A DNA stretch of 35,154 nucleotides from Acidobacteriota bacterium (lineage in GTDB: Bacteria > Acidobacteriota > Terriglobia > Terriglobales > Acidobacteriaceae). Of the stretch, positions 8,826-32,900 are shown piece after piece. The position numbers and the translations under genes are program-made. A model generated the notes under the pieces. The model ran no database searches, had not been told where the DNA came from, and worked only from the letters and a program-made list of their open reading frames with translations. Numbering within the stretch: position 1 is the stretch's first letter; the number at the start of each line of letters is the position of its first letter. The stretch lies in the NCBI GenBank assembly GCA_003225055.1, contig QIAU01000054.1, positions 1-35,154 on the forward strand, in the 5' to 3' direction.

Positions 8826-9493
8826 GCATACACCTTAATTTTCTTGAATCCCGAGCCGGAATTTACGATGGGATTCTCCAGCGAGTGCATCGTACGCTTC
8901 CCCTTCGCCGGACACAACGAATTCCTCGCGCTCGGCGCGACGACATTTGCGCAAGTCCTAGCCCCAAGCTGGAAATCAGGCGGCTGATCATCAGCGGTTG
9001 CCGCCTGTCTACCTCAATCATGCAAACATTCTGTTGGGTCCCGATTTCTCGAGAACGGTTGGTATGGGATGCCTCGCGTGACGAGATTTTCTATTCCGGT
9101 GCACTTTACGAGATTAAGGAAGTGATTAGAGCACAAAGGGCGACGAGCAGCGAGTTCATCGTGGAGACCGCTTTGATTCTCACGAGGAATCGTAAACCTC
9201 GCATTTTCAGCTCGGAGGGAATTTTCGGTAGTCACAGGATCTCCAATGTGTCGGGCCGTGAGTTCTCGTCGTGAAAGAGCAAGCGCCGAATGGAAATCCA
9301 AAAACCTGCAAGGCACAGGTCGCTCTGCAGAACCTTACGTCGGTTTGATTGTTTGATTCCGCCCGCGCCCTCCATTTCTTCTTGCTCGCTGCGCTCGCAA
9401 ACCGCCAAAGGTTTTTTGACCTCAATCAGATCTTGGAGGCGGCTCTGACAAGCGGTTCGGCGCGCAATTCGGTCTCGTCGCCGAGTGCGAGTT
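8826..9493. other. Region without a recognisable gene
   Basis: It should contain the promoter of the leftward permease. Open frames on both strands (8885-9274 +, 9014-9316 -) lack ribosome-binding sites and coherent composition. A short frame at about 8866-8985 (+) reads like protein (SSECIVRFPFAGHNEFLALG) but is not recognised. Confidence 0.4.
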
Positions 9494-9559
9494 CTATTCG
9501 ATTACTGCGAATTGCTTCAGGGCGTCTTCCTCAATTGTTATCCCCAGCCCCGGGCCGGC
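9494..9559 (-). pseudogene. C-terminal tail of an enolase-superfamily dehydratase (fragment)
   Basis: Read on the minus strand, about 20 residues before the TAG at 9496-9494 spell AGPGLGITIEEDALKQFAVI plus a final E. This matches the usual C-terminal ending of mandelate racemase/muconate lactonizing enzyme and galactonate-dehydratase-type proteins (P-GLG-V-x-x-D-E-x-AL-x-x-Y/F). The fragment ends exactly where the opposite-strand dehydrogenase fragment begins. More than 300 residues of the enzyme are missing, so this is a rearrangement scar. Such enzymes dehydrate sugar acids, the same theme as the neighbouring fragments. The match is short and made by eye. Confidence 0.5.
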
Positions 9560-9978
9560 CTGTCTTGAAGCTGATGGGCCGCGATGTTCTGCATATGGCA
9601 GCCACTGGGAGCGGAGCACTCATAAAACTGATCAACAACTTTGTTTGCGGTGTGCAGGCGGCTTCATTTGGCGAAGCACTGGCGCTAATTGAACATAGCG
9701 GGCTGAATCGTGAGCAGGCGTTACAAGTCCTCAACGATGGCGCTCCGGGAAGCCCGTTGGTCAAGATTATGTCGCAACGTATGACCTCGCGGAATTACGA
9801 TGACGTCAATTTCGCCCTCCAGCTTATGCTCAAAGATCTTAACTACGCCAACAAGGAGGCTGGTGCGCCGGGCGTGCGCCTTAATACAGGTCTGGCAGCC
9901 GCGGAGGTATTCGACCGTGCCCGTGAACGCGGCTGGGGAAAGAAGGACTTCTCCTCCGTGGTGGAGGGGCTGCGATGA
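9553..9978 (+). pseudogene. C-terminal domain of a 3-hydroxyisobutyrate dehydrogenase-type enzyme (N-terminus lost)
   Basis: From about 9553 the frame gives the complete helical C-terminal domain of the beta-hydroxyacid dehydrogenase family: RPVLKLMGRDVLHM, then GSGALIKLINNFVCGVQAAS with the conserved lysine of the G-x-x-x-K-x-x-N-N active-site motif, and on to VFDRARERGWGKKDFSSVVE. The N-terminal Rossmann domain with its GxGxxG NAD(P) motif is absent; the upstream 67 codons of the open frame are unrelated and cross the enolase-superfamily tail. It therefore cannot bind its cofactor and should be inactive. Relatives reduce or oxidise tartronate semialdehyde, 3-hydroxyisobutyrate or similar acids. 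Its TGA overlaps the ATG of the next fragment, showing the original operon spacing. Confidence 0.75.
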
Positions 9979-13467: not shown

Positions 13468-16212
13468 CTAGAACGTCGCCCGCACGCCCAGTTGCAGCTG
13501 GCGAGGCGGCGAGATGATATCGCTGGGCTTGCCGAAGGTCGGGGAACTGATTACCCCGTTGTACGATTCGGCATCGAAGTTTGGATGGTTGACGACGTTG
13601 AACATGTCCAACGTGGGACTAATCTCCACCCGTTCGCCGATCTTGAACGGCCGTGACAAGCGCGTATCCCAGACGTAGGTCGCGGCTGCGCGACCGGTGT
13701 TCCGTCCCACCCCAGGGGGACGATCCTTGAAATGGCCGTCTCCGTTATCGTCGGTGCCGGTGCTGATGTTAAATGGCCGTCCGCTCTGAATCGCAAGAAT
13801 ATTCGAGGTTTGCATACCCAGAGGCAGGTTGACGATCCCACTGAGCACGAAGCGATGGCGGGCATCACGTAGTGTAGGGCCTTTGTCGGCGAAGATGTTG
13901 TTGCTGTCCTGCGGCACTCCCGGCTCGAAGATGTCATCAGAGAGGCCGACGGCCTTCGACAGCGTGTACGCAAGCTGAAACTGGACCCGCTTCTCCAGAC
14001 TCTTGCGTGCGCTTATCTGCAAGCTGTTGTAATGGCTGATGTTGGTGCTCTGGAAACTTGTGAACAGTCCCAGCGTCGGGTAAAGCAATCCGCCCGGATT
14101 CAGTTCCCGGCTCATCCAGCCGTGGATTCCCAGAATATGCACGTAGCTGGAGTCCAGCACAACGCCCCACGGCAACTTTTGTCCCACGCCAACCGACCAC
14201 TGCTCCGTGTAAGGCTGACTCACGCGGCCGTCCACGGCGAAGCCTCCGGGCGGTGGCAGGGTCACCTGAAAGGCCGGATCGTTCACGTCCGGCTGCGTGG
14301 GAGAAAATGTATCAATGAAGTATTTCACTCCGTTGAACGTGCGATCGATGTAGCCGATCTCCCACACCGTCGAATCGTAGTACATACCGAAACCGCCACG
14401 CAGCACCGTGTTGCCGTTCCCGCGCAGGTCATAGGCGAAGCCTAGGCGTGGTCCGAAGCTCAGTTTTGGATTCTTGCGCTTTCGGCTGTCGAAGAAAGGC
14501 GCCAACCCTTCCAGCGGCTGTCGGAAGCCGGCATCGATGAAGCCGCTCTCGAATTCGTATCTCAGGCCGAGATTCAGCGTCAGTTGGCGGCTAACTTTCC
14601 AGTCATCTTGCACGTAGTAAGCCATCTGCCAGGCGGTGCCGCCATCTTCTTTCGTGGACCCAATTCCGCGCAGCGCGAAAAAGTCCGACTTGGGCAGCGT
14701 GGTCGTACAGCTCGTAGACGAAGAGCAGGTGATCCCAGGATCGTCGACGGAGAAAAAGAACGACGTGTTTTTCACCAGATCGAAAAGCGCGTTGTACTTG
14801 ATGTGCGGGTTTAGATCGGTCCCGATCTTGATATTGTGCAGCCCATGCCAGTTGGCCTGGGTGGAGAAGTCGTCGCGGAACTGCAGCCGATCCTGCTGTA
14901 CATTCTGTGGTGTGGAAGAACTCTGCCCTATAACCACGGAGGGGAAACGAAGGTTGATACCCTCGCTGGTAGGCTTCAGGTTGTTGATGAAACGGTTGAA
15001 CTGCACCACGAACTGATTGAGCGTGCGGCTCGATATCAGGGAAGTCTCGGTGGCTTGCCACGAAATATTTTCGTTGGTTGCAATTTGAAAGGCGCTTTCC
15101 GTCGGCGGACCTCCGTATAGAAGATTGGGATCGACTCGCAGGCCTTCGCGCGAGGTATTGCGCTGAAACGATGCGCGGAAACTCAAGCTCTCCGAAGGGT
15201 CGAAATGATGATCGAGCTTTCCCGCCATCAACAGGTCGCGGAAGGGAGCGGCGAATGATCCTTCGAACTGGGGATAGACGCCTCCTGTATCGATGGTCTG
15301 CGCCTTCTGCTGGCGATTGCGTTCGACAGCATAAAACCCGAAGGTTTTGTCCTTGATCAGTGGTCCGCCCACCGCGCCTCCGAACTGCTCGCGATTAAAG
15401 TCAGGCTTGGTCTTCTCGAAAAATCCGTTCGCTTGCAAATCTTTTTGGCGGTAGAGCAGGAAGCCGCTTCCGTGCAGGGTGTTCGTGCCGGATTTCGTTA
15501 CTACGTTGATGAACGGCCCGGAAGAGTGCCCGTATTCTGCCGAAAACTGGTTGGTAATGACCTGGAATTCCTCAATTGCGTCCTCGGGCACGAGTCCTAC
15601 CGGGCCACCCACGATGTTGTCATTGAAATTGCCACCGTCCACGCTGATGCCCGAACTGCGTGCTGTCGCTCCACCCGAAACCACACCGCCATAGAGTCGC
15701 TTGGTCGGGTCGTAGGAAGGCGATGGTGCCGCTCCCGGAATCAGATTTGCAAGTTGCTGGAAATTGCGATCATTGATGGGCAGATTGGCAATCTGTACCT
15801 GCGATACCGGCTGCTCAATCTGCGAAGTCGAAGTGTCTACCTGAGTCGCGAAGCTGCTGACATGGATTTGCTCTGAGCTTCCGGCAACTTTCAGCCCCAG
15901 GTTGGCAGTGATGGTATCGCCTACGGTCAGAGTGACTTTCAATCGTTCCCCGGCGAACCCGCTTTTCTGGGCCTGAAGCTCATATTGACCGCGGGGCAGC
16001 AGGTTGAAGCGGTAAAAACCGTCAGCGTTGGTGGTGGTGGTCCGCTGCACCCCGGTTTCGGAATCGGAAGCCGTTATGCTGGCGCCGGCAATCACGGCTC
16101 CGCTGGAATCCGTAACTACTCCCTGCAGGTTCGCTGTTACCAGTTGCGCATGCGCAATGACCGCGGAACACGCGATCATCAGGAAAATCAGATTGCCTCG
16201 GATGTGGTTCAT
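13468..16212 (-). CDS. TonB-dependent receptor, Oar-like, carboxypeptidase-regulatory N-terminus (1)
   Basis: A 914-residue outer-membrane protein. The ATG at 16212 follows AGGAG and gives a signal peptide (residues 1-22, ending AHA). Residues about 27-107 form a CarboxypepD_reg-like beta-sandwich (GVVTDSSGAVIAGASITASD, YRFNLLPRGQYELQA). A TonB plug follows (about 113-245: NLPINDRNF at 143-151, SVDGGNFNDN, EFQVITNQFSAEYGHSSG), then a long beta-barrel ending in the aromatic LQLGVRATF needed for outer-membrane insertion. These receptors bring large or scarce substrates across the outer membrane using TonB energy. Whether they carry sugars, peptides or other ligands in Acidobacteriota is not settled. 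The amidase downstream may act on the imported compound. It is shorter than the other two receptors here but complete. Confidence 0.92.
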   Translation of the reverse strand: MNHIRGNLIFLMIACSAVIAHAQLVTANLQGVVTDSSGAVIAGASITASDSETGVQRTTTTNADGFYRFNLLPRGQYELQAQKSGFAGERLKVTLTVGDTITANLGLKVAGSSEQIHVSSFATQVDTSTSQIEQPVSQVQIANLPINDRNFQQLANLIPGAAPSPSYDPTKRLYGGVVSGGATARSSGISVDGGNFNDNIVGGPVGLVPEDAIEEFQVITNQFSAEYGHSSGPFINVVTKSGTNTLHGSGFLLYRQKDLQANGFFEKTKPDFNREQFGGAVGGPLIKDKTFGFYAVERNRQQKAQTIDTGGVYPQFEGSFAAPFRDLLMAGKLDHHFDPSESLSFRASFQRNTSREGLRVDPNLLYGGPPTESAFQIATNENISWQATETSLISSRTLNQFVVQFNRFINNLKPTSEGINLRFPSVVIGQSSSTPQNVQQDRLQFRDDFSTQANWHGLHNIKIGTDLNPHIKYNALFDLVKNTSFFFSVDDPGITCSSSTSCTTTLPKSDFFALRGIGSTKEDGGTAWQMAYYVQDDWKVSRQLTLNLGLRYEFESGFIDAGFRQPLEGLAPFFDSRKRKNPKLSFGPRLGFAYDLRGNGNTVLRGGFGMYYDSTVWEIGYIDRTFNGVKYFIDTFSPTQPDVNDPAFQVTLPPPGGFAVDGRVSQPYTEQWSVGVGQKLPWGVVLDSSYVHILGIHGWMSRELNPGGLLYPTLGLFTSFQSTNISHYNSLQISARKSLEKRVQFQLAYTLSKAVGLSDDIFEPGVPQDSNNIFADKGPTLRDARHRFVLSGIVNLPLGMQTSNILAIQSGRPFNISTGTDDNGDGHFKDRPPGVGRNTGRAAATYVWDTRLSRPFKIGERVEISPTLDMFNVVNHPNFDAESYNGVISSPTFGKPSDIISPPRQLQLGVRATF

Positions 16213-17426: not shown

Positions 17427-17759
17427 TCACGCCACGACAGACACTTCTCCGTGTTCCTTGCGCGTTGGCGTTACCGTAATCTTCACGTCTTGCCCAAGGG
17501 CGGTGAGAAAGTCCATGAGACGCTCGACCGAAAAAGTGCCGGACCGGTTGCGCATCAATGCAGAGACGTGAGGCTGTTTGATGCCAAGAATCTTCCCAGC
17601 TTCAGCCTGCGTTAGGCCGCGTCCTTTGATGAGGCGGTAGATTTGTAGCGTGAGCTTTGCTTTCAAGAGTTCCTGTTCCGGATGGGGAAGACCAAGGTCA
17701 GCAAAGACATTTCCACTGCTTTTTTCCACCCTTACTTTTTCCCCCACTCTGGTAGTCAT
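17427..17759 (-). CDS. XRE-family antitoxin of a HigBA-type module
   Basis: A 110-residue protein with a helix-turn-helix at about residues 40-92 (LIKGRGLTQAEAGKILGIKQ, then PHVSALMRNRSGTFSVERLM), matching the group of HTH proteins that act as antitoxins to Gp49-like toxins. The N-terminal 30 residues include VEKSSGNVFADLGLPHPEQE, a conserved lead in this subgroup. It lies 64 bases downstream of the toxin gene on the same strand, the toxin-first order typical of higBA. It probably neutralises the toxin and represses the promoter upstream of the toxin. The module lies between two copies of the island repeat (17131 and 18543), which suggests it arrived by insertion. Confidence 0.85.
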   Translation of the reverse strand: MTTRVGEKVRVEKSSGNVFADLGLPHPEQELLKAKLTLQIYRLIKGRGLTQAEAGKILGIKQPHVSALMRNRSGTFSVERLMDFLTALGQDVKITVTPTRKEHGEVSVVA

Positions 17760-17823: not shown

Positions 17824-18186
17824 TTAATTCTGCGCTTCTTTCCGCAGCCGTTCGACGTCACCAAGGCGGCGGTGGATAAGGTCAATATCTTTCGGCGGTG
17901 TGGCGATGCCCCTCTTCGATTTCTTTTGAAAGGCGTGCAATACATAGATCGCCTCCGCGTACCCGACAGTATAGACAGTGCGCCATGTGTCGCCTTCATG
18001 ATCTGCAACAATCTCGACCACAGACCCTCCACCGAAACCTCTTAGCGGCTTTGCGGATGGATCCGTTTCACCCTGTTGGGCGGCATACAGAGCCTGGCCA
18101 ATGTTACGCCGGACCTCGCGCGGGAAACCGCGCAGGTCTCTTCGGCTCGAGCCAACCCAAACTACCGGGCGCTCTAAAGATACCAT
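17824..18186 (-). CDS. HigB/Gp49-like RelE-superfamily toxin
   Basis: A 120-residue protein of the phage-derived Gp49-like (HigB) group. Key blocks are RPVVWVGSSRRDLRGFPREV, AKPLRGFGGGSVVEIVADHE, TWRTVYTVGYAEAIYVLHAF and QKKSKRGIATPPKDIDLIHR, giving the expected RelE-like beta-sheet and the basic F-x-KKS segment. Such toxins cut mRNA on the ribosome. No good ribosome-binding site precedes the ATG, and the -10-like TATAAT (minus strand) touches the start codon, so translation may be from a leaderless or poorly translated mRNA. Alternatively the true start could be slightly different. It is the first gene of the pair with the downstream HTH antitoxin. Confidence 0.88.
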   Translation of the reverse strand: MVSLERPVVWVGSSRRDLRGFPREVRRNIGQALYAAQQGETDPSAKPLRGFGGGSVVEIVADHEGDTWRTVYTVGYAEAIYVLHAFQKKSKRGIATPPKDIDLIHRRLGDVERLRKEAQN

Positions 18187-18956: not shown

Positions 18957-18980
18957 AGGTTTCCACGTAGGTTTCCACGT
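18957..18980. repeat. 12-base tandem repeat upstream of the MBL operon
   Basis: AGGTTTCCACGT occurs twice in perfect tandem, 76-99 bases before the ATG of the metallo-beta-lactamase-fold gene. It could be an activator or repressor site for the three-gene operon, or a replication slip. Confidence 0.45.
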
Positions 18981-19055
18981 AGTTGTTCGCTGCTGTGTCT
19001 CGATGTACACTGACTGGCTTCGTCAACAGCGATTGACAATTGCAAAAAATAAAAG

Positions 19056-19976
19056 ATGAATCGTCGTACAAGTTGCGCTGTCGCGCCGATCGTTATGGTT
19101 CTCGCCACAGTGGTTTGCGCACAGAACCAAACGCCGCTCGTCTCCTCGGGGAAGACACGCGAAATCGCCGAACACATCTACGTAATACCGGACCAGAGGG
19201 TCAATCTGGTTCCAAACATCGGGATCATCGTTGGCCGGGATGGCGTGCTGGTCATCGATACCGGCATGGGCCCGAAGAATGCGGAGACCGTGCTGGACGA
19301 GGTGAAGAAGATCACCAGTGAACGCGTCGCTTACCTGACCATGACCCACTTCCATCCCGAGCATGGAATGGGTGCGCAGGCATTTCCTTCTGGCACAACC
19401 ATCATCTATCCGATGGCGCAGAAAACCGAGTTGATGGAAAAGAGCGCAGATATTATCAGGATGTTCAACGGCTTCAGCCCTGAAATTGCTGGCCTGCTGA
19501 AACCGGTACGCATGAGAATGCCTAACGTAACCTTCCGCGAAGAAGCGGAGGTCGATCTCGGCGATATTCCCGTCCAACTACTGCACTGGGGACCTGCCCA
19601 TACCCGGGGGGATGAATTCGTTTTTCTTCCCAAGCAGAGGATCTTGTTTGGTGGGGACGTGGTCGTCAACCGCTTCTTCCCCATCATGCCCGATGCAGAT
19701 GCGAACGGCGGCAACTGGATCAAGATGCTCGAGCGCATGGAGAAGATGAATCCGGCCATTGTGGTACCGGGGCACGGCGAAGTTGGCGACGCAAGCCTGA
19801 TCACCAAGATGCGCGAGTACCTTGAGTTCGTCCGCGATCGAGTCCAGCAAATGAAATCGCAAGGAAACGCTCTGGCAGAAGCGGAAAAGGGACTCGAGCC
19901 AGAAATCCGCGCCAAGTATAAAGATTGGGATAATCCGAACTGGGTTAAGAACGCAATCGACAATTTCTACAAATGA
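19056..19976 (+). CDS. Exported metallo-beta-lactamase-fold hydrolase
   Basis: A 306-residue protein with a signal peptide (residues 1-22, ending VCAQ). The MBL core shows DGVLVIDTG (62-70), the metal motif HFHPEH (98-103), H182 in GPAHTRGDEFVFLP, D201 in LFGGDVV and H240 in VPGHGEV. The usual HxHxDH aspartate is glutamate here, as in some exported MBL proteins, so the second metal site may be altered. The protein resembles the quinoprotein-relay/cyclase-like MBL group. Its substrate is unknown. The last four bases overlap the next gene (ATGA), making it the first gene of a coupled operon with two unusual membrane proteins. The ribosome-binding site is weak and A-rich. A tandem 12-mer lies upstream. 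Confidence 0.88.
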   Translation: MNRRTSCAVAPIVMVLATVVCAQNQTPLVSSGKTREIAEHIYVIPDQRVNLVPNIGIIVGRDGVLVIDTGMGPKNAETVLDEVKKITSERVAYLTMTHFHPEHGMGAQAFPSGTTIIYPMAQKTELMEKSADIIRMFNGFSPEIAGLLKPVRMRMPNVTFREEAEVDLGDIPVQLLHWGPAHTRGDEFVFLPKQRILFGGDVVVNRFFPIMPDADANGGNWIKMLERMEKMNPAIVVPGHGEVGDASLITKMREYLEFVRDRVQQMKSQGNALAEAEKGLEPEIRAKYKDWDNPNWVKNAIDNFYK

Positions 19977-21046
19977 ATGCCCCTGGAACTGCGCCAGTTA
20001 GCGACCGACGCTCGCCCGTGACGCGACTCCTGGTATTCGGAGGCATTGCCCTCATCCTCTCCGGCATGCTGCTGGGAGAAGTTTTCGCAATCTTCATATC
20101 GCACGCAGCGTCAGCACAGATTCGCAGGGAATGGATTGGAAGCATGATTCCTGCCATCGAGCAGCGAGATCTGGCCGCGGCTAGCACCGACTACGGCCGT
20201 ATTGAGGAACTGCTTGAGCGTCGTGGGCGCATCATGGATACGCACTCGCACCTGATAGCGTACGGCTTCCTGGCAATTGTCCTGGCGCTACTGCAGCCGC
20301 TGAACAAATATTCGGAGCGGGTTCGCCTTGCTCTGGCCTTGTGCATTGTGGCAGGCGGCCTGATCCAAAGCGTGTCGGTTTTTGTGAGCTATTGGACCAC
20401 TCCACCAGTGCGCGATGCGATTTTGATAGCTTCGGCTGCGGGGGGCACGCTAGTCCTCGTCGGTGTTCTCGGAACGATCGCAGGATTGCGCGGAATTTCC
20501 TCCAGAAGCAACTTCAACGCTCAGACATCCCGGCTATTGTCGTCGGCCAGCAGCCAAATCTTGCTGCGGATTGGAGCCCTCCTCATACTGGCCGGAATGG
20601 TTTTCGGCTTCTACTATGCCTGGGTGTTTGTCACGCAACACGAGCCCCAGCAGATCAGCTTATTGCATTCGGCGCTTCAGGCGGCGGTCTCGCGGAACAA
20701 CACGGCTGCAACCAGTTCAATCACCGCACACCGTTCGTTGCAATCCAAGATCGCGATCGTCACCGCGGCGCATTCGCATGTCATCGAGATGGGAACCATG
20801 GCGGTGCTGCTGGGGTTTGTACAGAATTTCGTCCTCCTCAGTGACCGGTGGAAGCGCCGGTGGGCAATCCTGTTCTGCATCGGCGGGGGTGTCATGCCGA
20901 TCTGTACCTACTCTGCCTCGATCTTCGGCCTGGTGCCCGCGGGGTTCGCCGACACTTTCGGCATCATGAGCATAATTGCATTGTTCGCGATGTTGTGCGG
21001 GTTAGTGCGGCAGACCGGTGCCGATGAACTCGGGTACGCACCATGA
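19973..21046 (+). CDS. Membrane protein with two tandem His-X-His four-helix modules
   Basis: A 357-residue integral membrane protein of about eight helices that divides into two homologous halves. Each half has a first helix (LLVFGGIALILSGMLLGEVF, and LLRIGALLILAGMVFGFYYA), a polar Ala-rich loop of about 45-50 residues, then a helix opening with a histidine pair (DTHSHLIAYG with H91/H93; AAHSHVIEMG with H267/H269), a charged turn, and two more helices with GG pairs (IVAGGLIQS, CIGGGVMPI). I know no named family for it. The H-x-H-L/V-hydrophobic start recalls DUF2871-type and heme-binding membrane proteins, suggesting heme or metal binding. It overlaps the MBL gene upstream and the related 162-residue protein downstream by four bases each, so the three are coexpressed. 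Confidence 0.8.
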   Translation: MNAPGTAPVSDRRSPVTRLLVFGGIALILSGMLLGEVFAIFISHAASAQIRREWIGSMIPAIEQRDLAAASTDYGRIEELLERRGRIMDTHSHLIAYGFLAIVLALLQPLNKYSERVRLALALCIVAGGLIQSVSVFVSYWTTPPVRDAILIASAAGGTLVLVGVLGTIAGLRGISSRSNFNAQTSRLLSSASSQILLRIGALLILAGMVFGFYYAWVFVTQHEPQQISLLHSALQAAVSRNNTAATSSITAHRSLQSKIAIVTAAHSHVIEMGTMAVLLGFVQNFVLLSDRWKRRWAILFCIGGGVMPICTYSASIFGLVPAGFADTFGIMSIIALFAMLCGLVRQTGADELGYAP

Positions 21047-21531
21047 GCAGCTGGCAACGAACCCTGACGGCTGCCGCCCTCTGGCTGATTGCGACCGGCA
21101 TTGTGGTTGGATTGGGGCACGCTGCCGCAGTACGATACAACACTCTGCCGGTGCTGCAGTCCCGGGTGTACTGGACAGCGGCAGAGCTGGCTTTGCAAAA
21201 CGATGCCCAGCAGGCTATCGAGGTCGCTGAAAATAAGAGCTACACCTTGACCCGTATCGTGGATGCTCATACACATATCATCAAGCTGGCCACGGTACTA
21301 CTGCTGGTGGCACTCGTCTATCCGCTTATCAATCTGCCGGAGAAGCGAAAACGAACGCTGTCAATCGCCCTCCTCACAGGGATTTGCGTGTTTCCGCTCG
21401 GGGTTGTGGCCGAAATCTATGTGCGCGGACGCTCCGCGCAGGCGATAGCCGCTGCCGGTGCTATGCTCGTCATCCTGGCCTTTGCGGGCCTGATCTGGGG
21501 CTTGCTACGCGGTTCCGCGGCACGCCTGTAG
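21043..21531 (+). CDS. Membrane protein with a third His-X-His four-helix module
   Basis: A 162-residue protein of four predicted helices, equivalent to one half of the preceding protein: helix 1 (LWLIATGIVVGLGHAAAV), a polar loop with Ala/Gln/Glu, helix 2 opening with DAHTHIIKLATVLLLVALVY (H76/H78), a lysine-rich turn (LPEKRKR), helix 3 (ALLTGICVFPLGVVAEIYVR) and helix 4. The H-S/T-H pair at the start of helix 2 is the only strictly shared feature with the two upstream modules, along with G/P positions in helix 3. It probably associates with its neighbour to make a three-module complex. It ends the operon; the converging TonB receptor lies 75 bases on. The function is unknown. Confidence 0.78.
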   Translation: MSSWQRTLTAAALWLIATGIVVGLGHAAAVRYNTLPVLQSRVYWTAAELALQNDAQQAIEVAENKSYTLTRIVDAHTHIIKLATVLLLVALVYPLINLPEKRKRTLSIALLTGICVFPLGVVAEIYVRGRSAQAIAAAGAMLVILAFAGLIWGLLRGSAARL

Positions 21532-21606: not shown

Positions 21607-24600
21607 TCAGAACGTGTACTTCAGCGCAAACTGGAGCTGGCGATTCGGCAACCGGGTGTCGTGGATCTGTCCCACTGCCGGCGAATTGAAGTCGCTCACT
21701 GGGATATCGAAGTTCGGGTGGTTGAACAGGTTGAAAAATTCCGCTCGGAATTGAACGTTCTGCCTTTCACTTACGCGGAAGTTCTTAAACAATGAGAAAT
21801 CCAGGTTGCTAATCCCGGGTCCCTCCAGACTATTCCGTGCCACTAGGCCGTCGGTGCCGAGGTGGGGATGGACAAAGGCGGCAGCATCAAACCACTTTTG
21901 CGGAGTTCGCGTGTCTGGGCCGAAAGGATTGCCAACCTGGTTGGGACGGTCGGTCGGCTGGCCATCCAGGTTAGGATCGGAAGTGTCCAGCACGGTGAAC
22001 GGGAAGCCGGTCTGCCAGGTCAGAATGCCGTTCACCTGCCAATTTCCCAAAGCTTGGTGGGCAAATCCAGAACTCGACTTAAGGACCGGCAACTCGTAGA
22101 GAGCGCTCAATACGAAGCGGTGACGCGTATCGAATGCGGAGTTACCACGGTCGAGGCGCAAGTTGTTTTTATCTTCCGGGAAGATGGCTTCGCTGCTCGG
22201 GTTGAGGAAGTTTACGGGGATTGAACTGCCGTCAATGGAGTGTGACCACGTGTACGATCCCAGGAATGTCAGGCCGTAATCCATGCGCTTATTGGCGCTA
22301 ATCTGCAGGCCCTGGTAGCTGGAATTGTCGGTGGTCTGATAATTCGACAGCTGGAAAAAGTTCGGTACCAGCGGCCTGCCGCTGCCAACTTGCGTATTCA
22401 AATCTACGGGTTGTACCAACTTGGTCCCCTTGGTTCCAACGTAGCCGGCTTCCAACACCATGTCTTTAGCAGCCTGGTATTGGTAGGTGAGATTCCACTG
22501 CTGAACATAAGGCGTGCGCATTCTGGGATCCATGACCTGCAAAAACGAGAACAGCGGGAAGATGTTGGAATCCGCCACCTGCTGCGCGGTCTTGCCCGCG
22601 AAGGGACTGCCGCCAGCAAAAGGATCGCCAAAACTGCTACCTGGTATCACGTGGTTCTCCACGAAATTGGGAACGGATGGGATGATGTCAAACGGCGGAT
22701 CCAAACCAAACTGGAATGGCAGCAAGCCAATCAGACGATCGTAAAAAATTCCGTAGCCTCCTCGCAGGCTCATCTTGCCGTTGCCTTTCGGGTCCCAGGC
22801 GAAACCGACGCGCGGGGCAAAATTGTTTTTGTCCGTCTGGATCGTGGAGCGCGTGATGCCCAGGTCACCGACAAACAATAATCCCGGCGGGGCGTTCGTG
22901 TGAACTGTGGATTGTGTTCCCGGCCTGTAGGCGACGACGCGATTCTTGGTGTCGGTCGGTGGTATCGGCAACTCGTAACGCAGTCCCAGGGTCAACATGA
23001 ACGTTGGGGTTACCCGTAGGTCATCCTGGAAATAGAAGTTATAGGAAGAGAAGCGCCATGCCCGAGTGGTTACGCCACCGGCCTGGGTGAACAGGTCGAA
23101 TTGTCCCTGCAGGAAGTTCGCAAAAGCGTCTTGTATAGGAAGGTAATTCGTGGTCGCGGTTTCCACCTTGGGGAGGAAGAGGAACGCGCCCTCCCCGATC
23201 GAATCGCTGCTGGGGATGTCCATCTGGTTTTTCAGGATTTGTACGCCATATCTGAGAGAGTGACGCCCGTGCATCCAGGTGAGATTGTCCTGGATCTGGT
23301 ACGTGTTCTCACGGCGGAAAGAGGGTGAGTCATTAAAGGTGCCGAATGCAGTGTAGCCGGCGAGTGCAATCAGGGGCATATTGTGCACGGCCTTGGTACT
23401 GGGCAGATTGAAGCCCAAGGACGCTGGATCGCGCACGATCGTCGATATCGCGCTGTCAAAGCGGCCACGATTGAACCCGAAGCGAAATTCGTTGGAAAAC
23501 GTAGTGGTGAAGAAATGAGTGTCGCTTACCGCCAGGTTCTGGATGCGATAGTCGTCCTGCAGGGGGAAATTGGAGAGGTTAATGGACACACCAAAGAGCG
23601 TGTTGGTGAAATTTCTGTCATTTGTGCCGTTGATCAGGAAATAGCGTGCACTGAGGTAATTCTTGCCGTTGATCTTGTGGTCGATCCTGACGTTATACTG
23701 GTCGGTATCTTGCACCTGCACGGGAGATGAGACGAACTCGTTGGTACCAACATTGGCTCGTGGAATCAGTGGTAAGAGAGCCGTGGCAGTCGGGTCGATG
23801 TTGGTCACGGTTCCACTGGCAAAGATCCCCGCTCGCTGCGCGTCCGACGGCACGGTGGCGATTTGGGTTTGACCCTGTCGCAACCGGAATCCCTCGTAGT
23901 TGAAAAAGAAGAACGTCCTGTCCTTGATGATCGCGCCACCAAACGTGCCGCCGAATTGGTTGCGCCGCAGCTTGTCTTTCTTAATGGCGAAGAAGTTCCC
24001 GGCGTCGAGTACGTCGTTGCGGAAAAACTCGTAAAGGCTGCCGTGAGATTGGTTGGTCCCGCCCTTGGTGATGATGTTGACGATCGAACCGCCACCCCCA
24101 CCGAATTCAGCCCCATAATTGTTAGTCAGAATCTTGAACTCCTCCAGCGCATCGGGCGAAGGGGTAGCCATGGCGGTACCGAGGAAGGGTTCGTTGTTAT
24201 CGGCGCCGTCTAGAAGGAAGTTGTTGGATTGGAGCCGCAATCCGTTGACCTGAAAATCAGACTTCTCGCCGCCCGGAAACTCAGGCGTATTGTTCGACCC
24301 CAGCGACATAGCCGGCACCACGCCGGGCTGCAGCACTGCAAGGTTAAGGAAGTTGCGACCGTTCAGGGGCAAGTCCGCAATCTTGGTCTCGTCGATTACT
24401 TTTCCCAGCGTGGCGCTGCGCGTTTCCACTTCTGCCACACTGGAGGCGGTGACGGAAACGGATTCTGCTACCTTCTTCAAACCGAGGGGCACATCAACGC
24501 GAATGTTTTCGTTTACGTTGACGACGACATTGGAAAGACGGTATGGATCGAATCCTTCTTTCTGCGCGGTGATGGTGTAATGGCCCACCGGCAGCAGGGA

Positions 24601-24855
24601 GAGCACATATTCGCCGGAAACTCCGGTGGTCGCCTCGCGCGAGAAGCTGGTTGCCTGATTGGTAGCTTTAATAGCGACTCCCGGCACGACCGCGCCACTG
24701 GGATCGGTCGCTTTCCCAACCATGCTGCCTGTGGTTTGTGCTGATGCGCAGCAACAAACGAGCAACGTTGCGATCACTGCTGCTGCACGTGGTGTAGCGA
24801 ATTGCAACAGTGTATTGACAACATGGTGTGGATGCTGAAGGCGAATTGGCGGCAT
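21607..24855 (-). CDS. TonB-dependent receptor, Oar-like, carboxypeptidase-regulatory N-terminus (2)
   Basis: The start is placed at ATG 24855, preceded by GAGGAGGGG, giving about 1082 residues; an upstream ATG at 24921 would add 22 residues without a leader. The signal sequence is preceded by a positively charged extension (hydrophobic core AAAVIATLLVCCCASAQ). Residues about 43-125 form a CarboxypepD_reg-like domain (GKATDPSGAVVPGVAIKATN, SLLPVGHYTITAQKEGFDPY), followed by the plug (DLPLNGRNF at 161-169, FLLDGADNNEPFLG, EFKILTNNYGAEFGGGGG) and a beta-barrel ending LQFALKYTF. It lies 240 bases downstream of an ACS-family permease on the same strand, which suggests that the receptor and inner-membrane permease may serve one substrate, though a separate promoter is likely. 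Confidence 0.92.
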   Translation of the reverse strand: MPPIRLQHPHHVVNTLLQFATPRAAAVIATLLVCCCASAQTTGSMVGKATDPSGAVVPGVAIKATNQATSFSREATTGVSGEYVLSLLPVGHYTITAQKEGFDPYRLSNVVVNVNENIRVDVPLGLKKVAESVSVTASSVAEVETRSATLGKVIDETKIADLPLNGRNFLNLAVLQPGVVPAMSLGSNNTPEFPGGEKSDFQVNGLRLQSNNFLLDGADNNEPFLGTAMATPSPDALEEFKILTNNYGAEFGGGGGSIVNIITKGGTNQSHGSLYEFFRNDVLDAGNFFAIKKDKLRRNQFGGTFGGAIIKDRTFFFFNYEGFRLRQGQTQIATVPSDAQRAGIFASGTVTNIDPTATALLPLIPRANVGTNEFVSSPVQVQDTDQYNVRIDHKINGKNYLSARYFLINGTNDRNFTNTLFGVSINLSNFPLQDDYRIQNLAVSDTHFFTTTFSNEFRFGFNRGRFDSAISTIVRDPASLGFNLPSTKAVHNMPLIALAGYTAFGTFNDSPSFRRENTYQIQDNLTWMHGRHSLRYGVQILKNQMDIPSSDSIGEGAFLFLPKVETATTNYLPIQDAFANFLQGQFDLFTQAGGVTTRAWRFSSYNFYFQDDLRVTPTFMLTLGLRYELPIPPTDTKNRVVAYRPGTQSTVHTNAPPGLLFVGDLGITRSTIQTDKNNFAPRVGFAWDPKGNGKMSLRGGYGIFYDRLIGLLPFQFGLDPPFDIIPSVPNFVENHVIPGSSFGDPFAGGSPFAGKTAQQVADSNIFPLFSFLQVMDPRMRTPYVQQWNLTYQYQAAKDMVLEAGYVGTKGTKLVQPVDLNTQVGSGRPLVPNFFQLSNYQTTDNSSYQGLQISANKRMDYGLTFLGSYTWSHSIDGSSIPVNFLNPSSEAIFPEDKNNLRLDRGNSAFDTRHRFVLSALYELPVLKSSSGFAHQALGNWQVNGILTWQTGFPFTVLDTSDPNLDGQPTDRPNQVGNPFGPDTRTPQKWFDAAAFVHPHLGTDGLVARNSLEGPGISNLDFSLFKNFRVSERQNVQFRAEFFNLFNHPNFDIPVSDFNSPAVGQIHDTRLPNRQLQFALKYTF

Positions 24856-25094
24856 AGGCTGTGCCCCTCCTCTGCCCGTCCCCCCTGCGCTCACGAGGAA
24901 TGAAATCCCAATCACCAGCACTGTTGAATATGTGGAATGCTGAACAAGAGCTGAATTTGAGGGACGAAGTTAGCACGGGGAAAAACGAGAGTCAACGACC
25001 AGGTTCAACACGTTCAACACGCGTAGCGCCAGTCGAGTTCTAATCGTGTGTTATCGGGAGACTGGGCCGTGCCCCGATGCCCACACGAGCCTGA

Positions 25095-26402
25095 TCATGC
25101 CGATGATAACTGCCCTTCTCTGGGCAGGAGCATTAAGAGTATGGCTGACATGAACAAGGAAACTCCTACCAGGAGCAAGCCCTGATGCAAGCTCCCCGTT
25201 TTCCTGCTGACGACTCCAAGAGCATAGGGCCCCACAAATCCGCCGAGGTTCCCGATCGAGTTAATCAAGGCAATGCCAGAAGCCGCCGAAAATCCGGAGA
25301 GGAACTGGCTGGGCAGTGACCAGAACGGGCCAAAGGAACTATATATACCCAGGACCACCCCCGACAAAAGTATGATGGAAAGAAGAGGAGAACGTGTGAC
25401 GGCTAGCGACCACAGCGCAATTCCTCCTATGATCAGAGGGATGGCCGCATGATAACGTCGTTCCCGCGTGCGATCGGAATGGCGGGAAACAAGAATCATC
25501 ACAACTAAACCCACAACGTAGGGAATCATCACCAGGAATCCGACCACGGTATTGGAGTACAGACTGGACAGCGATTTTACGATCTGCGGCATCCAGAAGT
25601 TCATTGAGTACGAGCCAATGACTGAAGTGAAATATGTAAATGCCAGATGCCAAACTCGGACATGTGCCAATGCCTGCAGCGCAGATATCTTGTAGTTTTC
25701 TAGTTTCCGTCGTTCTTCACGAGCCAGCTCCGCAACAATCCAGTCGATCTCCTCTTGGGTGAGAAATTTAGCTTCGGTCGGACGGTTCGGCAGCAAATAG
25801 TAGGTCAGTGCGCCGAAGATAACAGCGGGAACCGCCTCCACAATAAAAAGCCAGCGCCAACTACTGATCCCAAACCAGTGGACGTGGTCCAAAATCACCC
25901 CCGAGAGCGGGGCGCCCAAGATATTGGAAGCCGCCAGCGCGGTCATTAACAAGGCAACTGCCTGCGCTTGTTCTCGCTGGCGGAACCAGTAGGTCAGATA
26001 CAAGATGATCCCGGGAAAGAAACCGGACTCAGCCACCCCGAGCAGGAATCGCAGAATGTAAATGTGGAGCACACTATGCGCAAAGCCCGTCAGCATCGAG
26101 ACGACTCCCCAGCTGATCAATATCCGTGCAATCCAGATCCGCGCCCCGATCTTGTGCAGCAGCAGATTGCTCGGTACTTCAAAAAGCAAATAGCCGAAAA
26201 AGAAAATCCCCGCGAGCAGGCCGAACTCTTGGCTTGTAATGGCTAAAGCCTTGTTCATCGTCAAGGCAGCAAAACTGATGTTGATCCGGTCAAGATAAGC
26301 AATGACGTACAAGACGAAGAGGTAGGGGATGATCCTTCTTTGCAGTTTTTGGATTGTCTTGGTTCCGATATGTTCCGGGGAATCCGCCGCTTGCGCACAC
26401 AT
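25095..26402 (-). CDS. MFS transporter, anion:cation symporter (ACS) family (2)
   Basis: The start is taken at ATG 26402, six bases after AGGAG; an adjacent ATG at 26405 and a longer frame to 26441 are alternatives. About 435 residues and 12 predicted helices. Signatures are YVIAYLDRINISFAALTMNK, YLLFEVPSNLLLHKIGARIW, YILRFLLGVAESGFFPGIIL and SRHSDRTRERR, the same ACS set as the permease at 7.5 kb, with an internal loop of about 190-225 (PTEAKFLTQEEIDWIVAELA). The likely substrate is an organic or sugar acid. The two permeases are clearly divergent, so they are not a recent duplication. The TonB receptor that follows on the same strand is the natural outer-membrane partner. Confidence 0.9.
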   Translation of the reverse strand: MCAQAADSPEHIGTKTIQKLQRRIIPYLFVLYVIAYLDRINISFAALTMNKALAITSQEFGLLAGIFFFGYLLFEVPSNLLLHKIGARIWIARILISWGVVSMLTGFAHSVLHIYILRFLLGVAESGFFPGIILYLTYWFRQREQAQAVALLMTALAASNILGAPLSGVILDHVHWFGISSWRWLFIVEAVPAVIFGALTYYLLPNRPTEAKFLTQEEIDWIVAELAREERRKLENYKISALQALAHVRVWHLAFTYFTSVIGSYSMNFWMPQIVKSLSSLYSNTVVGFLVMIPYVVGLVVMILVSRHSDRTRERRYHAAIPLIIGGIALWSLAVTRSPLLSIILLSGVVLGIYSSFGPFWSLPSQFLSGFSAASGIALINSIGNLGGFVGPYALGVVSRKTGSLHQGLLLVGVSLFMSAILLMLLPREGQLSSA

Positions 26403-26465
26403 CATGATCTCCTGCGACGACGCCCACTTATCGCGCAACATCGATGAGGGGTGGGAATGCTGCCT

Positions 26466-27491: not shown

Positions 27492-28050
27492 CTAGCTTGC
27501 AGCAGCCAGAAACCCCAGTAATTCAAAAGGCGTCGTAGGTAGAATTTCAATCACTTCGCCGGTTCCGCCCGGTTCGCGTGAGAACAGCAACATCCTGTCA
27601 AAATCAAAAGCGAGTTTCAGGCCCCGAAATGCCCGGGCCGCGCATATACTGCAGCTATCCCGCTAATCTCGCAGCCGCCCTTCAAGTGAACGTCACGAAG
27701 CTTCATGCGCCAACTGAGGGCGGTCGTTCTCGCCACCTTGATGTCGCCCTCGCGCTCCGCGATACGGTCACGCCTCGTGAAAGACCACGACTCGCCTGGA
27801 AATGATCCCCGAGGTGTAGCGCTTCGGGTCTCCCGTGTATTCCTTTTCCAGAGATGGGCCACCTGACCGGGCGGCCTCCCGCCCACATGAGTAGGCTCAC
27901 CCATTTCAGATCTCCCTCACCGCAGAAATGCCGCAAAGCGCAATCCAATTCTTCCTGCAATTGCGTTGCGAGTTCCGGGTGCGCCCGTTTGTATTCGACG
28001 AGAGGACGAAGCGCGGGTTCGTACCTTTGCGCCGAATGCCTCCGCGAAAG
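27492..28050 (-). pseudogene. Broken ankyrin-like hypothetical gene
   Basis: Several minus-strand frames must be joined. One block (EYKRAHPELATQLQEELDCA, then LRHFCGEGDLKWVSLLMWAG) resembles the start of ankyrin-type hypothetical proteins in which C-REGKLKWV-LLLWAGA-P is a repeat unit. After RPVRWP the frame shifts. The last block, before the TAG at 27494-27492, reads LKLAFDFDRMLLFSREPGGT, then GEVIEILPTTPFELLGFLAA. At least two frameshifts interrupt it. Its upstream end lies about 30 bases from the start of the divergent VOC gene, so the two share a promoter region. The family assignment is tentative. Confidence 0.4.
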
Positions 28051-28080
28051 TCGTGCCCTCCTGAGATAAAATCGCGCATC

Positions 28081-29019
28081 ATGCTCACCGTATTGCGCAC
28101 GTACGCCAAGCGCGCTACGTTCACCTTCGGCGCGGGACTCTTGCTGCTCTTGGCCGCCCTTCCCTCGATCGCCCAGGATCAACCCGCGCGACCGCCAATC
28201 ACCGGCATCACGTACGTCCGCCTCTGGTCCACGGACCTGCCGAAGTCGGTCGCCTTTTACCGCAAGATTCTCGGCCTCACCCCGCGCGACGCCGGCTGCG
28301 CGGGCCTGATGCGCCCGTGTTTCATCATCAATGAGCACCAGCAAATAGCGCTGGCGAAAGCGGCTTCCGACCCTCCCGCAAACTTCCTCGCCGAAATCGC
28401 CTTCGCCACAACCGATGCTGCGGGCATGCGTCGGTATCTCATGGCTCACAATGTGGCAGCAGTGAGCACGATCACCAGGGACATCAACGGGACGGCACAC
28501 TTTTCTCTTTTGGATCCCGAAGGCCATCCCATTGCTTTCGTGCAGGCGCCCGCGCACCGCCAGTTCTCAGCCCCCGCGGAACAAGTCAGCACGCGCCTCA
28601 TTCATGCCGGCTTCGTGGTGAAGGACATGGCCGCCGAGAATCGCTTCTACCTCGATTTGCTCGGCTTCCGCCTTTATTGGCATGGCGGCTTCAAGGATAA
28701 CGGCCTCGACTGGTACGAAATCCAGGTTCCCGACGGTGACAGCTGGATCGAATACATGCTCAACATTCCCCCGGGCGCCGACCACAAGGAACTCGGCGTG
28801 CAGAATCACTTTTCGCTCGGCGTGAAAGACATTCACGCCGCTGCCGACCAGCTCCACAAGAACGGCTTGCAGAAATTTGATGGCCCCGAAATTGGCCGTG
28901 ACGGCAAATGGGGTCTGGACGCCTACGATCCCGACGGCACCCGCGTCGAAGTCATGGAATTCACGCCCGCCAAGGAACCGTGCTGCCATCCGTATACGGC
29001 GCCGCATCCGAACCAATGA
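28081..29019 (+). CDS. Exported two-domain VOC (glyoxalase/dioxygenase-like) protein
   Basis: The start is ATG 28081, where a signal peptide begins (TFTFGAGLLLLLAALPSIAQ); the longer frame from 27928 has no leader. About 312 residues. Two vicinal-oxygen-chelate domains follow. The first (about 42-155) opens ITYVRLWSTDLPKSVAFYRK and ends FSLLDPEGHPIAFVQ. The second (about 170-295) opens HAGFVVKDMAAENRFYLDLL, with WYEIQVPDGDSWIEYML and ending YDPDGTRVEVMEF. The second domain keeps an H at its start and an E in VEVMEF, usual metal ligands. In the first domain the opening residue is Y rather than H, so only one site may be active. Secreted VOC proteins of this build are common in Acidobacteriota with unknown substrate. 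A single gene. Confidence 0.85.
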   Translation: MLTVLRTYAKRATFTFGAGLLLLLAALPSIAQDQPARPPITGITYVRLWSTDLPKSVAFYRKILGLTPRDAGCAGLMRPCFIINEHQQIALAKAASDPPANFLAEIAFATTDAAGMRRYLMAHNVAAVSTITRDINGTAHFSLLDPEGHPIAFVQAPAHRQFSAPAEQVSTRLIHAGFVVKDMAAENRFYLDLLGFRLYWHGGFKDNGLDWYEIQVPDGDSWIEYMLNIPPGADHKELGVQNHFSLGVKDIHAAADQLHKNGLQKFDGPEIGRDGKWGLDAYDPDGTRVEVMEFTPAKEPCCHPYTAPHPNQ

Positions 29020-29823: not shown

Positions 29824-29997
29824 GTTTACGTTTTATTACAAGCCAGAGTATCTAAAAGGACCCAACGTCTTGCAGTACGGTGTAATCCCCGACGCCAGTA
29901 TCACAGAACGATGTCCTAACAAGTGCATAACGCATCGTTGGCAAAAAATATCCTGTAGGAGCATTTGACCAAAGCAAATGAAGGGTCGGTGAGCGAA

Positions 29998-32900
29998 ATG
30001 GCACAAATCCATCAGGTAAGAACTCGGTATAAGTCAGGGATAGTGGTTTGTCTTCTGCTGATCGGTGGCTTGTTTCCAGTGACCCTCGTGCAATTGCAGG
30101 CGCAGAGCGACACCGGATCGCTGCGCGTAGAAGTAGTGGATTCGACCGGAGCTGTAGTCGTAGGGGCGGCGGTCAAAGTGACTAATGAAGCCACCAGTGT
30201 TTCCGCCACCAAGAACACGGTGGCGGACGGCTACGCCACGTTCGACCCCATCCAACAGGGTACTTACGACGTGGAAGTCCAAATGGCGGGTTTTAAAGGC
30301 GTCAAGAACACTGACGTCACTGTGGATGTGAACGGGCGCAGGTTTCTGAGCGTCAAGATGGCCGTCGCGCCGGTCAGCGAAGCGATCGACGTCGTCGAAA
30401 GTACTCCACCATTACAAACCGAGCAGGCTTCACTCGGACAAGTTATCAGCGGCGATGTTGCGGTACAACTCCCCCTTCAGGGCCGGCGTTACACAGATTT
30501 GGCGCTCCTGGTGCCGGGGGTTACCGTAGCCAGCGATTTGAACCCGGTCACGCGTGGGCCGGACTGGTTCGTGGCCAATGGCAATTATCAGACGCAGAAT
30601 AACTTTCTGCTGGACGGCTTTGACAACAACCAGGGCACCACGAATGCGCAATCACTTTCCTCCGAAGTAGTGCGCCCATCGCCGGATGCGATCAGTGAGT
30701 TCAAAGTCCAGACCAACAGCTACTCGGCTGAATTTGGCCGCTCCGCCGGTGCGGTGGTCAACGTTTCTTTGAAAGCGGGCACCAACCAGGTGCATGGTAC
30801 CGCCTTTTACTACAACCGTGACAAAGCATTGGCAGCGAACTCCTGGCTGAACAATCTGACCGGTTTGCCCAAGCAAGATTTGGGATGGCATCAGTTCGGA
30901 GGGTCAATAGGTGGCCCGATTGTAAAGCATAAGCTGTTTTATTTTGGCGATTACGAAGGCTTTCACAGAACTTTTTCCGATACCTACCTGCGAAATGTTC
31001 CCACAGTAAAAGAGAAACAGGGAATTTTCCCCTTCACCATTAACGACCCACAGACCGGACTACCGTTTCTCAACAACACCATTCCGCAGACTCGGATGGA
31101 TCCTTTGGGTGCCAAGATCGTCGCACTCTATCCCGATCCGAATCTGCCGGGAAAGATAGATAGCAGTTCGGGACGCACCATTGAAAATTATGGGGCAGTA
31201 AGACCCGACCGGGAGAACACCCACAAGTTCGATATTCGCAATGACTATTACGCCACACAGCGCGACCAGATATCCTTCCGCTACAGCTTCCTCCAGGAGG
31301 ACATCTTTCGCAGCGCGATTTTCCCAGGAAACATCGCGGACTGCGGCTCGCAGGACTGCAACACCGGAGGCCAGTACAACCGCAACCAGAGCCTTGGCGC
31401 CAGCTGGACACGGACCCTCTCTCCAACCATCGTGAACGTAGTGCGATTCGGCTATTACCTTACGTATGCGACCTTCTCTCACACATCTGTCAGCGCTCCG
31501 ACTGCGACAGAGTTCGGTTTCAAGGGCATACCTTCTAACCTTCCACCTACCGGCGGACTTCCCCGAATCGAAATCACCGACTATCAGGAGTTGGGGACGC
31601 GCAACTTCCGCCCACAGTTCCAGAAACCGCATCTCTACGGAATACTTGAGAATGTCTCCCTGTCGCAGGGAGCCCACACAATTCGTGTGGGTTTCGAGTT
31701 ACGGTCGAAGAGCGATCAATTCGTTGATATTCAGCGCAGAACTCCCGACTACCGCTTCCGTGGCAATTTTACTGGTGATCCGTTGGCCGACTTGCTGCTG
31801 GGCATGCCTGACCGATTCAGCATGAGTTCGGTCCCGGTAGTGAATCAGTTGCAGCAAGTCTGGGCGGGATACGCGCAGGACGACTGGAAGGTAAACTCTC
31901 GACTCACTCTCAATCTCGGTCTGCGATACGAGTACGCAACCCCGTACTATGGTGACTCCCCGAATCGCAACGTCAATTTCGACTTCGCAACAGGTCAGCT
32001 TATTCAGGCGAGCGGCTCAAACAAGTACCTCGTGAACCGGGACAAGAAGGATTGGGGGCCTCGTCTAGGAGTGGCGTACCAGCTTGTTCCTGAGAAGGCC
32101 GTCATCCGTGCCGGCTACGGTCTTTTCTATAACGGCGAAGACATCTTCGGCTCCGATACCAACTTGCCGTTGAACCCCCCGCAACTCGTCTCAGTAACGT
32201 TGAGCGAACAGGGTTCAAACCCACCGTTGCGGCTTTCAGATCCAATTCCCAATAATATTCTTACCCAATTCGACACCAGTACGCTGGCATTGCGCGCTCG
32301 GGAGCGCAACTGGCGAACCCCGCGGGTCCATCAATTTAATGTGGCTACCCAGTTTCAACTTCCTGCACGTTCGTTTTTTGAAATTGCCTATGTGGGAAAT
32401 CGAGGCCGGCATCTGATCGCGAATTTTGACGCCAACCAGACGGCATTTGGTGCGGACCCGAGCGTCCGAGCCAATTACCCATATCCCAATTTTTTCCAGA
32501 TTTACACCGGCACCACGCGGGGAACATCACATTACAATGCGCTCGAACTCAAGTACGAGAAGCCCTTTCAGCGAGGGCTGTACGTACTTGGTTCGTATAC
32601 TTATGCGAGCGCCATCGATGAGTCTGGTGCCTGGGGCTCTGATAATCAGCCTCAGGTACGGGACTGCTTCGTTTGTGAACGTGGACCCATGCGGCAGGTG
32701 CCACGGCATCGCTTCACTTTGGCGGGAGTTTATGAGATTCCCGTGGGACACGGGCGGACCTTCGGAAACAATATGAGCCGGGTGTTAGACGCCTTTATCG
32801 GGGGATGGCAACTCTCGAACATTCTCACTTGGCGTTCGGGCTTACCCATAGATGTATCGATGGATCCGAGTGGAACCGATCCGATTACCGGACTACCAAT

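Follow-up and report, generated by a model that had tools for sequence, protein, structure and literature searches.

The window analysed here, 35,154 nucleotides long, is one whole contig (C31; QIAU01000054.1 of assembly GCA_003225055.1) of the 7.4-Mb genome of an Acidobacteriota bacterium (Terriglobales; Acidobacteriaceae). On its forward strand lie three overlapping genes (Table 1), which encode a hydrolase of the metallo-beta-lactamase (MBL) fold and two membrane proteins, here called dbl, with two homologous four-helix modules, and sgl, with one. A preliminary description of this DNA had joined the three genes by ATGA overlaps, and both the open reading frame (ORF) calls and the sequence agree with it. 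The unit that recurs in other genomes is the dbl-sgl pair. Its three modules carry an invariant His-x-His (H-x-H) motif, and they probably belong with styrene oxide isomerase (SOI) and with a module of haem-copper oxidase subunit I, the oxidase link being an indirect one.

Table 1. Coordinates of the three genes and of the modules and motifs within them (positions in the window).
Feature	Position	Strand	Basis
MBL-fold hydrolase, 306 aa	19056..19976	+	ORF; Pfam Lactamase_B match
ATGA overlap, hydrolase stop/357-aa gene start	19973..19976	+	sequence
dbl membrane protein, 357 aa, two homologous four-helix modules	19973..21046	+	ORF; halves homologous
dbl N module, residues 14-174	20012..20494	+	profile comparison, pooled alignment
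H91-S-H93, invariant H-x-H of N module	20243..20251	+	dbl and pooled alignments
dbl C module, residues 190-350	20540..21022	+	profile comparison, pooled alignment
H267-S-H269, invariant H-x-H of C module	20771..20779	+	dbl and pooled alignments
ATGA overlap, 357-aa gene stop/162-aa gene start	21043..21046	+	sequence
sgl membrane protein, 162 aa, one module	21043..21531	+	ORF; profile, model, structure matches
H76-T-H78, invariant H-x-H of sgl	21268..21276	+	sgl and pooled alignments

The three modules are homologous. In hhalign comparisons over 156-157 columns, the N half of dbl matches the C half at 99.8% (E 1e-28) and sgl at 99.8% (E 7e-28), and the C half matches sgl at 99.4% (E 1e-21), which upholds the earlier view that the 357-residue protein consists of two similar halves and that the 162-residue protein equals one of them. 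Each motif is followed by an aliphatic residue: Leu after H-S-H (91-93) in the N module, Val after H-S-H (267-269) in the C module and Ile after H-T-H (76-78) in sgl. Both histidines are invariant in 30 of 30 dbl proteins, 26 of 26 sgl proteins, and all 36 modules of a pooled alignment, which holds three modules each from 12 of the 30 loci, hand-chosen for diversity. Only six columns of the pooled alignment are invariant (G19, G23, H76, H78, G113 and G153). That two of these are the histidines accords with the earlier claim that the H-x-H pair is kept while the rest of the module has diverged. Acidic residues two positions before the first histidine, Asp89 in the N module and Asp74 in sgl, are invariant in their respective alignments, as is Glu272, three residues after the second histidine of the C module, among the 30 dbl proteins. 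Because some residues are kept in one module only (Glu272 in C, His140 in N and Arg71 in sgl), the three modules are not equivalent to one another.

AlphaFold2 models of dbl (pLDDT 83.9, pTM 0.71) and sgl (pLDDT 88.9, pTM 0.76) place the motifs within long helices spanning residues 67-110 and 243-286 of dbl and 55-95 of sgl. The motifs themselves are as first described, but in the models they do not open a helix: they lie 21-24 residues inside it, where the hydrophobic part starts, and the preceding part of the helix belongs to a polar hairpin. Neither membrane protein of the window matches a Pfam or NCBIfam family above its cut-off. Membership in any named Pfam family was rejected, since the window proteins fall below the cut-offs and the best E-values of other members are weak. 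For example, DUF2871 (PF11070) is matched by one of the 26 sgl proteins, at E 0.11 and below the gathering score, and by none of the 30 dbl proteins. NnrS (PF05940) is matched by no dbl protein, and COX1 (PF00115) by none of the 30 at E <= 10, all 19 families with dbl matches having been considered; neither family is among the best 25 of the 32 families matched by the 26 sgl proteins.

The genome of the window contains a second pair, on contig C114, and the two dbl proteins are 36% identical. A search of genomes, one per species, with the C114 copy as the query gave 34 loci, all acidobacterial, and a scan of the same type over genome contigs with the window protein as the query gave no relative. 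With two further loci (L005 and L008) and the window, the total is 37. One of these (L041, 44 dbl residues at a contig end) was not counted, leaving 36 dbl ORFs, and four that end inside dbl (L022, L026, L039 and L040) were excluded from the overlap count, leaving 32 loci, the window included. In 31 of the 32, the end of dbl overlaps the start of sgl by four bases (ATGA or GTGA). In the remaining locus (L027), dbl and sgl are joined in-frame, so that all three modules lie in one protein of 579 aa, which speaks for dbl and sgl associating 1:1 into a three-module complex. Of 396 sampled genomes of the phylum, three (G000, G210 and G464) contain dbl and a fourth (G259) contains a lone sgl; short matches in G408 and G470 (E 0.003-0.007) were not counted. 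Viral contigs, scanned once for relatives as a sign of phage association, yielded none. No description of a 2+1 protein of this kind was found in the literature searched, which lacked preprints and most subscription papers.

The hydrolase does not share this distribution. It matches Pfam Lactamase_B (PF00753, MBL superfamily) at 72.3 bits, well above the gathering cut-off of 22.7, and its closest NCBIfam model is TIGR04559 (quinoprotein relay metallohydrolase), at 142.8 bits and hence below the cut-off of 280. Its N terminus, judged by eye, contains a signal-peptide-like stretch, and its metal motif, HFHPEH, has Glu at the Asp position of HxHxDH. No relative was found among all ORFs on both strands of 35 related loci (E <= 1e-3), whose flank amounts to at least 4.5 kb on one side in 33 and on both sides in 23. 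A search of 100 related genomes gave matches at E <= 1e-40 in three, the window's own genome included, and neither dbl nor sgl lies within 14-18 kb around the matches in the other two. An MBL domain occurs near the pair in only one other locus (L059, outside the 35), past a receptor gene; there, positions 3183-6116 on the reverse strand encode a protein of 977 aa in which UbiD decarboxylase, MBL, alkyl-sulfatase dimerisation and TPR domains are fused. The hydrolase-dbl-sgl trio was therefore rejected as a unit, with an MBL relative in none of the 35 loci. Of what had been expected from a survey of neighbourhoods, the membrane pair recurs but the trio does not, and the idea that a periplasmic hydrolase is the regular partner of the membrane proteins is not supported. 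The hydrolase should be left out of the definition of the system, and the arrangement in the window is an exception, a divergent paralogue joined to a hydrolase and met nowhere else here.

Elsewhere, the pair is usually found in apparent catabolic operons of Acidobacteriota. Neighbours were counted in those of the 35 loci with enough flank, as same-strand ORFs scoring above 60 bits against one reference each; for the TonB-receptor-like outer-membrane receptor, this reference was the L008 protein, in which Pfam recognises an outer-membrane beta-barrel and a CarboxypepD_reg domain. Upstream of the pair lie this receptor (27/28 loci), a luciferase-like monooxygenase (16/30), a flavin reductase (10/30) and a GntR regulator (14/23). 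Downstream are genes of a molybdenum hydroxylase of the CO-dehydrogenase family, namely coxM (28/30), coxG (26/29) and coxL (26/28), followed by genes for ketopantoate-reductase-like (KPR), M24 and M20 proteins, each in 26 of 28 loci. The exceptions for coxL and the genes behind it are L025 and L042, and the genome of L042 has a coxL that is 79% identical at another site. The monooxygenase was rejected as an obligatory partner, being upstream in just 16 of 30 loci; of the 396 genomes, only G000 and G464 have a close relative of it, and at the G210 locus the pair is present but the monooxygenase is not. Three loci depart from the usual operon. In L059 (genome G464), a receptor, flavin reductase, luciferase-like monooxygenase and DMSO-reductase-type molybdenum enzyme with FeS and NrfD subunits precede dbl and sgl, after which come a receptor and the UbiD-MBL-TPR fusion. 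In L025, the pair has upstream an Oxidored_FMN/FAD_binding_3 protein, an enoyl-CoA hydratase, an acyl-CoA dehydrogenase and a RidA-type protein (PF01042). In L058, a lone sgl (9424-9855), which is possibly truncated or has a different start, stands between a receptor and a cyclase-family protein, beyond which are FAD_binding_3 and Oxidored_FMN proteins. In L005 (6903-14203) and related loci, the operon runs from receptor and flavin monooxygenase through dbl and sgl to coxMSGL, KPR, M24 and M20, and seems to encode an uncharacterised catabolic pathway, the substrate of which may be an N-heterocycle or amide.

Structure comparison leads from the single module to SOI, cytochrome oxidase subunit I and, not far behind them, MAPEG proteins. 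Against the PDB, Foldseek ranks SOI (8pnu) third for the sgl model (TM-scores 0.66/0.69, probability 1.00, E 0.12), with the highest TM-scores among the best 50 matches listed, and for the dbl model it ranks subunit I of a ba3 oxidase second (E 0.10, probability 0.99). A second aligner puts residues 376-524 of cytochrome c oxidase subunit I first for sgl (Z 12.2, root-mean-square deviation 3.0, 129 residues aligned) and SOI sixth (Z 11.6, deviation 3.2, 132 aligned), while for dbl its top match is oxidase subunit I (Z 12.1, deviation 7.6, 272 aligned). All these values are below about 13, where by the aligner's own caveat a likeness between helical bundles may reflect no more than a common arrangement. 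Because of this, fold alone is not decisive.

By sequence, the modules come closest to SOI. The SOI sequences used were six StyC proteins from plasmids, out of seven plasmid matches (H3 was left out). The pooled module profile scores 33.5 against the SOI profile (P 1e-4), compared with 14.3 for reversed SOI. Singly, all six SOI sequences score 22.4-34.9 against the pooled profile. For comparison, 45 unrelated-query membrane ORFs were scored forwards and reversed, a set in which not all members are independent and some are near-duplicates; the mean is 13.6 (standard deviation 3.3), two of the 90 reach 22.4 and a third reaches 22.2. One of the two is L072 (23.1), which had entered as a weak match in an earlier search. 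The other, L091 (28.0), is a protein of 151 aa with the sequence AHTHVILVGF, and it matches Pfam COX1 at 44.6 bits (cut-off 34.8). The L091 family profile, which has five rows, one of them (L096) starting at an internal Met and so without its H-x-H, matches oxidase module 3 (P 7e-6) and, weakly, the pooled modules (P 0.0024, over 18 columns around H-x-H). A direct profile link between our modules and those of the oxidases was rejected as not significant, and the connection runs through the L091-like proteins. Larger proteins also match the single-module COX1-like protein: in L100, L101 and L102, frames of about 660-700 aa give two matches to it each. They begin with Cys-Cys-Gly-Gly-type soluble segments, and a segment that looks related is found C-terminally.

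SOI is a trimer in which haem b is held at the subunit interface by H58 of one subunit, and in which a network of N64, D95, N99 and Y103 is described as positioning the substrate, mutation having impaired or abolished activity (PMC11374702). In another SOI, the equivalent His57 is the haem ligand and a D94 variant was active in whole cells (PMC12502698). The authors of the former study report that their DALI search gave no substantial relatives (PMC11374702). In our profile alignment, itself only moderately supported (P 1e-4), the first histidine of the modules is aligned with H58 and the second with G60. The columns of N64, D95, N99 and Y103 hold here, respectively, mostly Leu, Ala or Phe; Gly in 36 of 36 modules; Pro in 35 of 36; and mostly Ile, Leu or Phe. 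The likeness to SOI covers a four-helix module, possibly of the same fold, the first histidine and an alignable stretch from transmembrane helix 2 to 4; a StyB-type reductase and an aldehyde dehydrogenase step are common to the sty loci as well. The differences are that SOI assembles from three identical one-module subunits with one histidine each (H-x-G), whereas here there are 2+1 modules with H-x-H and a long helical hairpin between transmembrane helices 1 and 2, and the four network residues are not kept.

Haem-copper oxidase subunit I has twelve helices in three four-helix units. One unit carries H-x-H (VAHFH), and the models align with the subunit at Z 12, a value to which the aligner's caveat applies. 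Unlike the oxidase, which has the motif in one module of one polypeptide, the present system has it in all three modules and is divided between two polypeptides, save in L027. The CuB ligands of these oxidases are a His in helix VI and a His-His pair in helix VII, and by inspection no His-His pair is invariant or nearly so in the dbl, sgl or pooled alignments. The single-module COX1-like and DUF2871-like proteins of the L091 type resemble the modules in having four helices with H-x-H at the same place, but their loop is short, with no long hairpin, and their alignment with the present modules covers only the 18 columns.

We propose that dbl and sgl form one complex of three four-helix modules and about 12 transmembrane helices, a 2+1 pseudo-trimer whose module fold would be like that of SOI and haem-copper oxidase subunit I. 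The H-x-H would mark the point at which transmembrane helix 2 goes into the membrane, probably from the periplasm. Each interface could then bind a haem b between the first histidine of one module and the second of its neighbour, so that a ring of up to three bis-His, low-spin haems would result. Helical geometry is compatible with this: in SOI, N64 follows Gly60 by one turn and faces the same way, so a histidine at the Gly60 position could ligate the haem of the neighbouring module. In the oxidases, the two histidines of the H-x-H likewise serve two haems; a literature search for their residue numbers found no paper. In the usual operon, the complex would take electrons, directly or via quinone, from the adjacent molybdenum hydroxylase while the cell breaks down a compound that the neighbouring outer-membrane receptor has brought in. 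The copy in the window would be a diverged one that has become joined to an exported MBL hydrolase.

Module homology, the invariant H-x-H, the pairing with its one fusion and the operon context are computed results; from them we infer a haem, probably bis-His in its ligation, a possible redox role in electron transfer, and the hydroxylase as candidate partner. Taken as a whole, the pseudo-trimer with interface haems fed by a molybdenum hydroxylase is a tentative proposal, to which we give somewhat less than an even chance. The boldest part of it, a bis-His haem at all three pseudo-symmetric interfaces of a 12-helix protein, a form midway from the homotrimeric SOI to oxidase subunit I with its fused and asymmetric units, we regard as doubtful. 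The earlier suggestion of three histidine sites in one membrane complex, perhaps with haem, gains indirect support from the SOI and oxidase structure matches, the H58 alignment and the L027 fusion.

Several observations weigh against this proposal. No Foldseek match of either model reaches E <= 0.001. A lipid flippase stands first for dbl (E 0.08, probability 0.63), above the oxidases. For sgl, mPGES-1 precedes SOI by E-value. With LTC4 synthase, it belongs to the MAPEG proteins, trimeric, glutathione-dependent four-helix membrane proteins without haem, which have the best E-values for this model (0.07-0.08) and lie at about Z 10 with the second aligner, reaching 10.4. Searched against PDB sequences with HMMER, the dbl profile finds SOI weakly (E 0.11, with A-H-T-G over A-H-S-H), and the pooled profile finds neither SOI nor an oxidase at E <= 10, its one match being an unrelated protein (E 1.2). 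Against the three oxidase modules the pooled profile scores 11.2-15.4 (best P 0.12, not significant), and the L091 family has no clear match to SOI (P 0.03). A hairpin on the periplasmic side agrees only weakly with the charges of the loops. His140, in transmembrane helix 3 of the N module, is nearly invariant elsewhere and lost in the window, where no molybdenum enzyme adjoins the pair. The contexts of L059, L025 and L058 differ from the usual operon, and in their genomes the best coxL match has 34-35% identity, with no close relative. L058 moreover has a lone single module, its match lacking the start of helix 1. Finally, passing electrons to quinone may already be the task of CoxG.

Of the alternatives, an SOI-like isomerase that turns over an epoxide draws on the fact that SOI is the closest sequence neighbour found. 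The flavin reductase (10/30 loci) and the luciferase-like monooxygenase (16/30) upstream would suit such a pathway. The reductase has StyB as its best NCBIfam match (130.7 bits, below the cut-off of 200), and the gene order resembles that of plasmid sty loci. Further, Tyr occupies the Y103 column in 2 of 36 modules, one of them the C module of the window. If the alignment is right, however, N64, D95, N99 and Y103, which matter for SOI activity, are not kept (PMC11374702). The second histidine, in place of Gly60, could close the sixth haem site, and the monooxygenase is absent from 14 of the 30 loci. Since that histidine falls on the Gly60 column and the other SOI residues are lost, bis-His haem and electron transfer are favoured over SOI-like catalysis, and the count for coxL (26/28) set against that for the monooxygenase (16/30) points the same way. 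We therefore consider an isomerase rather unlikely.

About as unlikely, in our estimate, is a non-haem site in which Fe, Cu or Zn is bound by H-x-H and acidic residues, as in a metal-dependent enzyme or a metal chaperone. The invariant acidic neighbours Asp89, Asp74 and Glu272 would provide ligands for it, but the nearest proteins with an equivalent histidine bind haem, and the window proteins have no known family above cut-off, with only weak best E-values for the other members. The frequency of the receptor gene, upstream in 27 of 28 loci, adjoining the lone module of L058 and present in L059, could instead indicate a permease or import accessory for the receptor's substrate, with H-x-H in a structural or proton-linked role. 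To our knowledge, permeases do not typically keep both histidines of such a pair absolutely conserved in each of three modules, and no convincing transporter family is among the matches listed. The SOI trimer has been called reminiscent of a channel (PMC11374702), which is in its favour; on balance we hold a permease to be very improbable.

If the ring of three haems is real, the 2+1 form and the occasional one-chain fusion would be living examples of how single modules could have given rise to the respiratory oxidase core. If the modules are relatives of SOI, they would supply a second family for its fold, tied to the haem-copper oxidases, and a path, open to testing, by which single-module proteins could lead to an oxidase core of 12 helices. 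In addition, an unexplored catabolic operon of soil Acidobacteriota, centred on a molybdenum hydroxylase, would gain a likely partner in the membrane. The chance that the pair is an informative relative of the oxidase core is moderate.

Around the three genes of the window, three large TonB-receptor-like proteins are encoded (13468-16212, 21607-24921 and 29965-33285), each an outer-membrane beta-barrel with a CarboxypepD_reg domain. Close by are also genes for an MFS transporter (25095-26441) and a glyoxalase-family protein (27928-29019). On the reverse strand, adjacent genes encode an HTH_37 protein of 110 aa (17427-17759) and a Gp49/DUF891 protein of 120 aa (17824-18186), as assigned by Pfam, a pairing that we take to be typical of HigBA-like toxin-antitoxin loci. 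About 75 bases 5' of the trio, at 18958-18981, GGTTTCCACGTA occurs twice as a tandem direct repeat.

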